A model generated the notes under the pieces. It worked only from the letters and a program-made list of their open reading frames with translations. It had not been told where the DNA came from and searched no databases. Below, in pieces: positions 229-33,425 of a stretch of 33,425 nucleotides of DNA. Numbering within the stretch: position 1 is the first letter of the stretch; each line of letters opens with the position of its first letter. Position numbers and translations under genes: made by a program. This DNA comes from Sulfuritalea sp. (GTDB taxonomy: Bacteria > Pseudomonadota > Gammaproteobacteria > Burkholderiales > Rhodocyclaceae), in NCBI GenBank assembly GCA_021738385.1, contig JAIPCF010000027.1, forward strand, positions 1 through 33,425. The letters are read 5' to 3'.

Positions 229-305
229 AAAAAGTTCCTGAAGGGACGCAAAGCGCTGGTGATGGTGATACGGCGGAGGATACGACTCAAGCACTGGATT
301 CCGGC
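229..305. repeat. Mosaic repeat, tandem copy 1
   Basis: Begins AAAAAGTTCCTGAAGGGACG and ends CTGGATTCCGGC. It matches the second copy at 325-401 at 75 of 77 positions by eye; the differences are T/C in the TTCC(T/C)G stretch and T/C in GG(T/C)GATGG. The start-to-start offset is 96 bp. The 3' end runs into the palindrome ATTCCGGC-TTCC-GCCGGAAT at 298-317. Confidence 0.85.
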
Positions 306-324: not shown

Positions 325-401
325 AAAAAGTTCCCGAAGGGACGCAAAGCGCTGGCGATGGTGATACGGCGGAGGATACGACTCAAGCACTGGATTCCGG
401 C
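325..401. repeat. Mosaic repeat, tandem copy 2
   Basis: Second copy of the 77 bp unit at a 96 bp offset from the first. It differs from copy 1 downstream: instead of the short TTCC loop, the left palindrome arm at 394-401 is separated from its right arm at 442-449 by 40 bp. That insert contains CCCGCGCAGCGGAAACCAAG from 410, which resembles sequence at 13725-13758. Confidence 0.85.
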
Positions 402-500
402 GTTGCCACCCCGCGCAGCGGAAACCAAGGCATGCAGAGCCGCCGGAATGACGGCGCGCTGAAAACTCGGCGATGGCGATACGGCGCTTTACTGCCTGCC

Positions 501-5348: not shown

Positions 5349-5401
5349 CGGTTTGCCACGTCATATCGGCGAAAGGCGCCGTATCGCCATCGCCGACTTT
5401 T
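5349..5401. repeat. Mosaic repeat copy upstream of the AGPS-like gene
   Basis: GCGGTTTGCC at 5349-5358 and GCGCCGTATCGCCATCGCCG from 5376 through GACTTTT at 5401. The second part is nearly the reverse complement of 462-487. The first part recurs at 9773-9782 next to the same core. The repeat fills the gap between the exporter permease stop and the next gene and reaches into the stop codon TAA (5401-5403 on the minus strand). In between is a small hairpin, CGGCG/CGCCG with a 5 nt loop. Confidence 0.75.
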
Positions 5402-9772: not shown

Positions 9773-9810
9773 GCGGTTTGCCGTGTCGCCATCGCCGACT
9801 TTTCGGGAAC
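9773..9810. repeat. Mosaic repeat copy between the DUF4824 gene and the exporter
   Basis: GCGGTTTGCC at 9773-9782 leads into GTGTCGCCATCGCCGACTTTT at 9783-9803 and CGGGAAC to 9810. Compared with the copy at 5349-5401 it lacks about 23 bp between the two parts. On the minus strand it reads GTTCCCGAAAAGTCGG and so on, which also links it to the GTTCCCGAAGGG unit at 325-401. The rest of the 151 bp gap at 9675-9825 holds only the -10 element and nothing else recognised. Confidence 0.7.
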
Positions 9811-13107: not shown

Positions 13108-13905
13108 ATGAACATCGATATCAGCGAGGAAGCGGGCGTCCGCTATCTGCATTTCGGCTCGTCATGGATACAGGGCGCGATGCGTATTGCGCGGCCGTTC
13201 GCGTTGGAGCTGGATTACACCCGCGAAATGATGACGCCACTGCTGTTCCATGGCGATGATTGGCCGCGCAAGGTACTGCAGATTGGACTTGGCACCGGAT
13301 CGGTGACCAAGTTTCTCTATCGTTACCGCTCGCAGGCAAAGCTGACGATCGTTGAAATCGAGCCACGCGTGGAGGCTGCTGCCCGGCAGTTCTTCAAGTT
13401 GCCTGACGATCCGGTGCGCATCGAAATTCGCCATGGCGACGGTGCCGACTTCATGATTCAGTCGAAACAGCACTTTGATCTGATTCTGGTCGACGGCTTC
13501 GATGCCGATGCGCGTACCGGCCGCTTGGACACGGTGCCTTTTTATCTTGATTGCCGTGCCCGCCTGGCCGATGATGGATTGCTGTGCGCGAATCTGTTGT
13601 CGCGGCGCAAGGATTTTGGCAAGAGCGTGATCCGCTTGAAAGACGCCTTCGAGGGTCACGCCATCGCTTTCCCTTCCTGCGACAGCGGCAATGCCATAGC
13701 GCTGGCCGCGGTAGCCGTTAGCTGCCCGCGAAGCGGAATACCAGGTACGCAAAGCGAGCCAGCGCCCTGCGTCCCGTTGGGAACTTTTGAAGATATCAAG
13801 ACTGCCGCCTTGCGACTGAAGCGGACAACCGGCCTGAATCTGCTTCCCACGCTTGCCCGGCTTCAGGAATCGCGGCATCTCGCTGGCGGCGTCCTTCAAC
13901 TGTGA
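13108..13905 (+). CDS. Spermidine-synthase-like class I methyltransferase-fold protein
   Basis: A 265-residue protein of the polyamine synthase/SAM-binding fold. The glycine-rich nucleotide motif VLQIGLGTGSVTKFLY is at residues 57-71, the acidic IVEIEP at 81-86, HGDGADF at 109-115, and FDLILVDGFDADA at 123-135 corresponds to the SpeE aspartate region. The start ATG at 13108 (MNIDISEEAGVRYLHFG) is chosen because a long upstream extension lies inside hslO. It is shorter than full SpeE and lacks its N-terminal tetramerisation domain, so the reaction is uncertain. Residues about 203-227 (between IALAAVAV and FEDIKTAALRLK) are an insertion whose DNA at 13725-13788 belongs to the dispersed repeat family of this window; the frame stays open across it. 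Family members elsewhere are expected to lack this stretch, which a database alignment would settle. Confidence 0.82.
   Translation: MNIDISEEAGVRYLHFGSSWIQGAMRIARPFALELDYTREMMTPLLFHGDDWPRKVLQIGLGTGSVTKFLYRYRSQAKLTIVEIEPRVEAAARQFFKLPDDPVRIEIRHGDGADFMIQSKQHFDLILVDGFDADARTGRLDTVPFYLDCRARLADDGLLCANLLSRRKDFGKSVIRLKDAFEGHAIAFPSCDSGNAIALAAVAVSCPRSGIPGTQSEPAPCVPLGTFEDIKTAALRLKRTTGLNLLPTLARLQESRHLAGGVLQL
13725..13788. repeat. Mosaic repeat copy inside a coding region
   Basis: CCCGCGAAGCGGAATACCAG from 13725 resembles CCCGCGCAGCGGAAACCAAG from 410. The segment at 13759-13788 is the reverse complement of the 326-355 unit at 26 of 30 positions by eye. The element lies wholly within the spermidine-synthase-like gene and reads through in frame as about 21-25 residues rich in Pro, Ser, Gly and Cys. 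Confidence 0.75.
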
Positions 13906-13912
13906 ATACCCC

Positions 13913-14860
13913 ATGAGCCCATCCCACGTCGATCATCGCCGCGGCAGCTTGTACATGCTGCTGGTTATCGTGATCTGGGGCGGCTTACCGCCGATTGGCA
14001 AATCGGCGTTGCAGTTAGTGGATCCCTACTGGATTTCGGCCATGCGATTCGGATTCGCCGCCTGCGTCTTCCTTGCACTGTTATGGCTGCGCGAGGGACG
14101 CGGCGCGCTGAGCACGGATGGACAACTGAAAAAAATCGCCCTGTTCGGCGCTTTCGGATTTGCCGGATTCGGCATCACTCTTTTTGAAGGCCTGCGGCTG
14201 ACGCGGCCCGAAATCGCCGCCATGATTCTGGCGCTGGGCCCGATTCAAGTGGCGATATTCCAATGGTGGCAGACCCATCGGCGGCCGGACAATTTCACGC
14301 TGACTGCAATTGCCTTCGCTTTGCTGGGTGAAGCTTTCGTCCTCACCGCCGGCGATATCACACGACTCAGCGGTGGCGATGCCTTGGGCAATGGTCTGGT
14401 TTTTGTCGCGTCTCTGTTCTGGACCGCCTATACGCTGGGCGGCCAGCAGTTTCCCGGCTGGTCGCCGGTACGCTACACGGCCTTGTCCTGCTCGCTGGGC
14501 TGGTTTGCCATTGCGGCGGTGCTTGGCATCGCGACTCTCGCCGGCCACAGCAGCCCGCCACGAGCGGAGCAACTTGTTGCCGTCTGGCCGCAACTGACCT
14601 ACATTATTCTCTGCGTATCGGTGCTCGCTATACTTTTCTGGAATATGGCCGTGGCGAAAATCGGCCCGCTGAATGCCGGATTGTTCGCCAATTTTGCGCC
14701 GGTGATTACCTATTTGATTGCAATCGCCCAAGGCCGGATACCGGCGAGTCTTGAACTGATGGGTGCCGCCATTGTGCTGATCGCCCTGATTGCCAACAAC
14801 CGTCACCAAAGCCGCAAAGTTGGCCGACTGAACCGCCCCGCTACGCCGCCATTTGACTGA
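13913..14860 (+). CDS. EamA/DMT-family transporter
   Basis: A 315-residue inner-membrane protein with ten predicted helices in two EamA repeats. The first begins near LYMLLVIVIWGGLPPIGKSAL, the second near DALGNGLVFVASLFWTAYTLGG, and AGLFANFAPVITYLIAI is the typical end of the second repeat. It resembles the drug/metabolite exporter superfamily; the substrate cannot be inferred. The ATG at 13913 (MSPSHVDHRRGS) follows the previous stop by 7 bp and is preferred over a frame reaching back into that gene. The 3' end overlaps nagZ on the other strand by 20 bp, so the two genes are convergent with no room for a separate terminator. Confidence 0.92.
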   Translation: MSPSHVDHRRGSLYMLLVIVIWGGLPPIGKSALQLVDPYWISAMRFGFAACVFLALLWLREGRGALSTDGQLKKIALFGAFGFAGFGITLFEGLRLTRPEIAAMILALGPIQVAIFQWWQTHRRPDNFTLTAIAFALLGEAFVLTAGDITRLSGGDALGNGLVFVASLFWTAYTLGGQQFPGWSPVRYTALSCSLGWFAIAAVLGIATLAGHSSPPRAEQLVAVWPQLTYIILCVSVLAILFWNMAVAKIGPLNAGLFANFAPVITYLIAIAQGRIPASLELMGAAIVLIALIANNRHQSRKVGRLNRPATPPFD

Positions 14861-17054: not shown

Positions 17055-17786
17055 TCACAACTCCTGCAACTCCATGAAAACCCGCCGCGACTGCAAGGGC
17101 TTGCCTCCCATATGATGCGCGATCAACTGACGCATCAATTGCCGGCTTTCCATCCTGGTACGCGGATCCGAATAGTCATCAGCCACCATGTCGAGCAGAG
17201 TCTTGCCGTGCAGGCGGGGCGCCTCGCCCTCTGCCGTGTCGCCAGCGCCGAGATTTTCGACCGGCCCCCGCTCGATCAGGTAAGTGTAGTCACCGTCGGG
17301 TACCACACGCCGGCCTGACGCGATGTCCACATCCAGCGTCAGACCGTAGCCCAGTTCCTTCAGCAAGGTCTTCTCGAAGCGACGCAACTCCGGCGCATCT
17401 GCGGCGCCAGCAGCCAACGCACGCAATGCGGCCGCATAAGCGTCGAACAGTACGCTGTGGGCGTCTTCGCGCGGCAGCATTTTCAGCAGCAGTTCGTTGA
17501 GATAGTAGCCGAGCAACAGACAACGGCCACCCAGCAAGGGCATTCCGCCAAGCCATTCAACCTTCGCCAGCGTCTTGACCTCGCCACCGCCAAACCATCC
17601 CAGTTCCAGCGGCTGAAACGACATCAATGCGCCACGCATCGCGGAACGCGGCCGCCTCGCACCACGCGCCACCAGCGGTACTCGCCCATGATCACGCGTG
17701 AAGACGTCAACCACGAGACTGGTCTCGCTGTAGGGATGAAGATGCAGAACATAGGCCGTCTGGCCGTCGACTCGCTTGCTGCTCAC
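17055..17786 (-). CDS. recO: DNA repair protein RecO
   Basis: Mediates loading of RecA onto gapped single-stranded DNA with RecF and RecR. 243 residues: an N-terminal OB fold (AYVLHLHPYSETSLVVDVFTR, then GRVPLVARGARRPRS) and a helical C-terminal domain (ELRRFEKTLLKELGYGLTLD). The zinc-binding cysteines found in Bacillus-type RecO are absent, as is common in proteobacteria. The start codon is GTG at 17786; no in-frame ATG lies upstream before the era end. It is 44 bp after era. Confidence 0.95.
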   Translation of the reverse strand: MSSKRVDGQTAYVLHLHPYSETSLVVDVFTRDHGRVPLVARGARRPRSAMRGALMSFQPLELGWFGGGEVKTLAKVEWLGGMPLLGGRCLLLGYYLNELLLKMLPREDAHSVLFDAYAAALRALAAGAADAPELRRFEKTLLKELGYGLTLDVDIASGRRVVPDGDYTYLIERGPVENLGAGDTAEGEAPRLHGKTLLDMVADDYSDPRTRMESRQLMRQLIAHHMGGKPLQSRRVFMELQEL

Positions 17787-33122: not shown

Positions 33123-33425
33123 TTAGTCGCACAAAGTCGGCGTTGGCAGTACGGCGGCCATGCGAGCTGCTATGGCTTCCGGCAAACGCTGGCGTGCCTC
33201 TTCCGCCGCTTTCTCAAGCGCATAGCGAAAAGCGGTTTGGTCGGCCGAGCCATGACTCTTGACCACGATGCCCCTGAGACCCAGCAGACTGGCGCCGTTG
33301 TAACGTCGTGCATCGAATCTCTGGCGAAAAGCATTCAGGATGGGCATCGCCATGAGAGCCACCATCTTGGTGAATATATTCCGCGAAAACTCTTCCTTTA
33401 GCGCGCTGACGATCATGTGAGCCAA
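33123..33425 (-). CDS. plsX: Phosphate acyltransferase PlsX (C-terminal part, cut by window edge)
   Basis: PlsX converts acyl-ACP to acyl phosphate for phospholipid synthesis. Only the last 100 residues are inside the window; the reading frame is open at the right edge, so the gene continues beyond it. The family block [20 protein letters not shown] is unmistakable, followed by [20 protein letters not shown]. The stop TAA lies 10 bp before fabH, in the standard plsX-fabH-fabD-fabG-acpP-fabF order. Confidence 0.96.

Follow-up and report, generated by a model that had tools for sequence, protein, structure and literature searches.

Hairpins inserted in frame at one point of a recurrent 25-nt word in Sulfuritalea genes, with a possible DNA-uptake role for the word

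The insert in the window gene

The window analyzed here, a stretch of 33,425 nt, belongs to the draft genome (3.34 Mb in 162 contigs, 82% complete) of a freshwater bacterium, a Sulfuritalea-like betaproteobacterium. It contains an open frame for a polyamine aminopropyltransferase-like protein (Table 1), whose nearest named relatives are found in Sulfuritalea and other Rhodocyclales. The protein matches Pfam PF01564 at 41 bits (cut-off 22.9). It scores 204 bits with NCBIfam NF003380, which is below the curated cut-off of 304, and that match stops just before the insert described here. Its best Foldseek matches are spermidine synthases (E 1e-11, TM about 0.5-0.7).

A preliminary description of the window had reported a dispersed repeat at 13725-13788, inserted as one unit into this gene and adding 21-25 residues to its product. 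The repeat is real, and the reading frame is open through it. Its inverted match to 326-355 is exactly 26 of 30, a score reached by none of 5000 shuffles (shuffled maximum 18), and the second match that had been claimed, to 410-441, also holds (Table 1). Its extent and composition had to be redrawn: the true extent is 13714-13788, with two inserted modules instead of one, and what had been taken for a single unit merges three things, a word that we call S, a 36-nt hairpin, H, and a small module, M3. GCCGT, CCAGCGCC and ACTTTT jointly make up S, which relatives have without the inserts. Compared with the empty allele, the window gene carries an additional 51 nt, 36 from H and 15 from M3, so that the actual net gain is 17 residues. 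M3 is also present at 233-250 and 329-346. A search of Rfam returned nothing at E up to 1 for positions 13600-13950. In the AlphaFold model of the protein (mean pLDDT 84), most of the extra residues are predicted to form a coil, residues 202-222, between two strands and with pLDDT near 60, which would fit a tolerated loop.

Table 1. Positions of the gene, the inserted modules and related repeats in the window
Feature	Position	Strand	Remarks
CDS, polyamine aminopropyltransferase-like	13108..13905	+	265 aa from ATG at 13108 (start codon chosen by us); open frame
Word S piece 1, GCCGT in gene direction	13714..13718	-	comparison with empty orthologues
Hairpin module H	13719..13758	+	40 nt replacing 4 of the empty allele; net +36 nt = 12 codons
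Word S piece 2, CCAGCGCC	13759..13766	-	comparison with empty orthologues
Module M3	13767..13782	-	16 nt replacing 1; net +15 nt = 5 codons
Word S piece 3, ACTTTT	13783..13788	-	comparison with empty orthologues
Intergenic 77-nt repeat, copy 1, M3 at its start	229..305	+	
Intergenic 77-nt repeat, copy 2 (97% identical), M3 at its start	325..401	+	source of the 26/30 match
Degenerate H-like stretch	410..441	+	24/32 against the gene copy
Word S, 1 mismatch of 22	464..485	+	
Word S, exact	5378..5399	-	
Word S, 1 mismatch	9780..9801	-	
Word S, 3 mismatches	17233..17254	-	
Word S, 3 mismatches	33134..33155	+	

Alignment with homologues bore out the insertion. The hairpin peptide occurs at this site only in the window gene and in one other genome (G004) among 23 same-genus orthologues that cover the site, and it is absent from the six outside-genus orthologues. 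A further contig, VBWA01000036 (L123), encodes a peptide identical to that of G004 and is probably the same genome; the two were counted once. Measured over the same alignment columns, the site is 34 residues long in all six outside-genus orthologues and in 15 of the 23 genus members. Of the remaining members, one has 35 residues and one 37; there are 43 in each of four that carry a module M4, 55 in G004, which has both H and M4, and 51 in the window gene. M4 is another in-frame module, of 27 nt and with a peptide like SHQGIPLRI; it lies inside S of the SpeE orthologues and is found in five genus members (L032, L033, L034, L035, L038). The word itself varies at this site. It has no mismatch to S in G014, two in G002, G003 and G009, and three, four and up to seven or more in others, about nine of the 23 genus members being not clearly S-like (seven or more mismatches); the six outside-genus orthologues have 8-12, the same as shuffles. 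The likely order of events in the window gene is that S appeared without length change and that H entered afterward, probably when this lineage and that of G004 were still one. The window lineage is the only one on which M3 is seen.

Hairpin H and the genes that carry it

A 30-nt pattern for H, allowing at most three mismatches, finds 42 places in its own genome, and the reversed control finds none. Searching the same genome with the sequence of 13715-13800 gave 40 scored places from 56 candidates, with 33 of the 40 below E 1e-5. Across 81 genomes searched, H is present in 29 of the 31 that belong to the genus, at 1-90 copies each; the 50 other genomes yielded one three-mismatch match in total. 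The repeat is thus lineage-specific and has many genomic copies. Neither of the findings named beforehand as telling against the preliminary description was made, and to this extent it stands.

The stem of H is supported by covariation. Among 59 distinct copies in the matches listed, pairing is intact in 96.9% of cells for the seven proposed pairs. Double changes number 32, against 6.3 in shuffles (none of 500 reaches 32) and at most nine when the partners are slid. Taken alone, the window copy has a folding stability no better than that of its own shuffles. The consensus, as read from the copies, is without a GTAG or CGTC tetranucleotide. H also occurs in tandem arrays with a period of exactly 36 nt (L277-L283), and it was found in four viral stretches.

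From the 42 places, 33 distinct copies with loci were inspected; L014 has an indel and did not fit the pattern. Twenty-two of the 33 lie at one point of S, between GGCGCTGGC and ACGGC. Both flanks identify 21 of these, and the other is the window copy, whose left flank is interrupted by M3. Sixteen of the 22 embedded copies are in frame in genes, versus one of the 11 that lie outside S (Fisher p 0.0008, with coding labels assigned by eye). In-frame insertion of the hairpin into S is firmly established. The preliminary description had suggested that the repeat was, or is, mobile. A single mobile palindrome striking genes at large is not supported, given the clustering at one point and the mostly in-place origin of S; what stands is a dispersed palindromic repeat, in frame, lineage-specific and in many copies. 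One member of the genus, G016, has 27 copies of H but only ten of S (one in a 200-kb sample), and, as 11 inspected copies in the window's own genome are outside the word as well, H does not need S.

Two further observations concern sites of insertion. Three copies of a second H subfamily, with a CGG-CCG stem, were seen by eye to occupy much the same point of S but to face the other way (G002 sample, segment A, 29488, 148156 and 333302). Three H copies (L025, L026, L027) lie within a CACAGAG repeat, CACAGAGACACAGAG, with CAG or CAGAG apparently doubled at their ends, a possible target-site duplication, although the sequence entered is repetitive in itself.

Family searches and orthologue alignments place H in frame within 16 conserved genes of its own genome. 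The hosts are SpeE-like (the window gene), heptosyltransferase, IspH, YgiQ, asparagine synthase-like, GatA, FucA-like aldolase, PepN, FadJ, MoeA, RibD, LpxH, acyl-CoA dehydrogenase, U32 peptidase, error-prone DnaE2 and formate dehydrogenase alpha, where the insertion is near the N terminus. A 17th gene, AroA-Cmk, has an H variant that is located outside S. Thirteen of the 16 insertions are read in one frame, giving a peptide like KVGAGSLCVPGIPLRGQVTA, two in the SpeE frame and one in the third. For the 15 hosts other than SpeE, H was present at the same site in eight of 91 same-genus orthologues and in none of ten from G032, as judged by eye. The copies in host genes are separate insertions within the genus. 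The single-contig genome G002 also has H in frame, in a heptosyltransferase. One more module lies in frame ahead of S or H in MoeA (L221, L176) and in the genome's own DnaE2 (L023); its peptide resembles VMPPAQPGAVSPAD.

Distribution and origin of the word S

S is a 25-nt word, RAGTCGGCGCTGGCGRYACGGCGA, a sharp-edged motif with two conserved blocks. In 800 kb of G002 there are 171 copies at up to four mismatches of 22 (control, one), and AGTCGGCGCTGG is the most over-represented 12-mer of this sample, occurring 114 times against an expected 1.9. At up to two mismatches, S is present in all 31 genus genomes, at 10-427 copies per genome, and 30 other genomes have 0-2 each (controls 0-1). In 200-kb samples taken from G016 and from G032, no comparable word was conspicuous.

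The location of S in the G002 sample was scored against genes called by a home-made gene finder. Of the 171 copies, 128 are inside predicted genes, 33 between genes and ten across gene ends, and the intergenic copies exceed the 7.6% intergenic share of the sequence (p 6e-7). The six frames are used unequally (47, 32, 23, 12, 8 and 6; p 1e-11), with small neutral residues favored, although some gene calls around S look wrong and these frame counts are approximate. The two strands are balanced (79 of 171 plus). Spacing is on average more even than random (mean CV 0.81, p 0.002); in segment B alone, one of the two G002 segments, it is within the random range (CV 0.86). Along genes, S is distributed uniformly, with no bias to gene ends (p 0.85 and 0.93).

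We examined how S comes to be in coding sequence by comparing sites with their orthologues. Eighteen sites were drawn at random from 37 that were eligible, six were dropped by eye, 12 were searched, and comparators were obtained for 11. At seven of the 11 there is no length change across S, one of these having G016, from within the genus, as its sole comparator; the other four have an indel at or near S. In most of the sites examined, and in the window gene, S arose by point mutation in place, though not at every site. The idea that S is itself an insertion element was therefore rejected.

ComEC is present in all 37 genomes searched and, being in every genome, it does not discriminate for or against an uptake reading of S. 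The exact S word was also seen in 36 viral-contig stretches (L397-L432), and Y1 genes with S within 200 nt of an end are found at L274, L276, L285, L286, L371, L372, L373 and L374.

A proposed two-layer model, its rivals and known systems

These data lead us to favor, as the probable explanation, a model in two layers, in which S accumulates by uptake-like point mutation and H and the small modules enter S at fixed points. S would accumulate by point mutation wherever DNA and protein tolerate the change. The likeliest driver would be biased DNA uptake followed by recombination, with S acting like a DNA uptake sequence. REP-like H, with its net 36 nt, and the smaller modules M3 and M4 would then enter the word at fixed points. 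H amounts to exactly 12 codons, stop-free in the three frames that S mostly uses, and H would be found in frame in many conserved enzymes because S occupies protein-tolerant positions and the added codons are free of stops. The point of insertion, the gain of 36 nt, the covariation of the stem and the lengths of the orthologues are shown directly, whereas we infer the uptake function of S, an enzyme that mobilizes H and the order of events; S may be an unrecognized DNA-uptake tag.

One competing idea, that S and H form a single mobile unit some 60 nt long, comparable to a Rickettsia palindromic element, with lone S a remnant after loss of H, draws on the fact that S flanks H in most inspected copies and on the indels at or near S in four coding sites. 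Yet S is far commoner than H, and the two counts show no correlation across 31 genomes (rho 0.08): G029 has 320 copies of S and G011 has 171, and neither has H by pattern. Nor is there a length change at S at the seven in-place coding sites or in the window gene. We rejected the single unit on the uncorrelated counts and the mostly in-place origin of S, and regard it as very unlikely. Transposases might instead have moved both sequences. REPs elsewhere are known partners of RAYTs, Y1 (RAYT-like) genes are present in most genus genomes, and S lies no more than 200 nt from eight of 11 Y1 genes, compared with 93 of 600 genes sampled from G002. This proximity is a lead only, as the 11 loci probably include orthologues and the flanks of Y1 genes may be wide. 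However, no Y1 match was found in G016 (27 H, 99% complete), G006 (66 H, 90%) or G001 (16 H, 83%), the number of Y1 genes does not correlate with that of H copies (rho -0.02), and H is without the GTAG tag. Movement of H and S by the Y1 transposases of these genomes strikes us as somewhat unlikely.

The sharp edges and two conserved blocks of the motif, its even spacing and its presence throughout the genus would also suit S as the binding site of a chromosomal protein, whether nucleoid, repair or regulatory, with H targeting either S or the bound protein. Strand polarity is usual in sequences guiding replication or segregation, whereas S has none; in addition, three quarters of S copies are within genes, and copies at one site vary strongly between species. 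A binding site is, in our judgment, unlikely. Finally, the source is an incomplete draft in many contigs, in which a repeat could have joined unrelated sequence inside a gene during assembly or binning. But the insert is in the contig interior and in frame, G004 has the same hairpin peptide at the same residue, and the in-frame heptosyltransferase copy comes from the single-contig G002; with a second genome excluding it, an artefact has a negligible probability.

In-frame insertion of palindromes is best known from Rickettsia, and the preliminary description had likened the window repeat to the elements found there. The resemblance holds in effect, but the route differs. Like the Rickettsia elements (RPEs), H is a palindrome that lies in frame in many conserved genes, one of them for a DNA polymerase, and is tolerated by the proteins. 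It differs in residing in a free-living betaproteobacterium, in having a fixed landing word and in the exact 12-codon gain; it adds 36 nt, in contrast to the 105-146 bp reported for RPEs (PMC2229807). H resembles REPs and BIMEs in being an imperfect palindrome of 20-40 bp, high in copy number, arranged in 36-nt tandem arrays and mostly genus-specific. REPs pair with RAYTs and are tagged with GTAG or CGTC at one of their ends (PMC3733652), whereas the H consensus has neither tetranucleotide, its copy number does not track Y1 genes, and many copies are inside S in genes. Intragenic REPs and RPEs are already described, with DnaE2 genes among the hosts and Thauera among the genera (PMC3733652; PMC2229807).

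Uptake sequences are described as arising by point mutation rather than insertion, without orientation bias and with even spacing, and in Haemophilus 65% of copies are within ORFs, with an excess outside ORFs (PMC1939737). S resembles the DUS of Neisseriaceae and the USS of Pasteurellaceae in being over-represented and lineage-specific, mostly in ORFs yet enriched between genes, strand-unbiased, on average evenly spaced and, at most sites, built by point mutation. Unlike them, it is 25 nt long rather than about 9-12, GC-rich, from another bacterial family and host to hairpin inserts. Pasteurellaceae uptake words are biased to gene ends (PMC2346458); S is without such a bias. A 2025 account names Neisseriaceae and Pasteurellaceae as the only families known to have uptake sequences (PMC12616744). 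A literature search, sparse in subscription journals, found no report of an H repeat or of an uptake word in the present family, and the main text of the Sulfuritalea genome paper makes no mention of repeats, palindromes, competence or uptake (PMC6397845). Three things are new here: that the hairpin has a landing word, that it adds exactly 12 codons, and that S behaves in an uptake-like manner. We advance only tentatively, and with some doubt, the possibility that Sulfuritalea has independently evolved a putative 25-nt uptake sequence, which would be the first beyond Neisseriaceae and Pasteurellaceae, and that REP-like hairpins have adopted it as a landing site. Sequence-biased transformation would then indirectly steer a selfish hairpin to protein-tolerant spots throughout the proteome, with enzymes made longer in frame.

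In these free-living bacteria, in-frame insertion of palindromes is frequent and follows a visible rule, in which the hairpin enters a pre-placed, tolerant word and adds whole codons. This would give selfish DNA a testable route for adding novel loops to core enzymes. Should S prove to be an uptake sequence, the genus would be a third lineage in which to ask how sequence-biased DNA uptake arises, with S-poor (G016) and S-rich members side by side. G016, with its many hairpins and almost no S, is a natural contrast for what S does.
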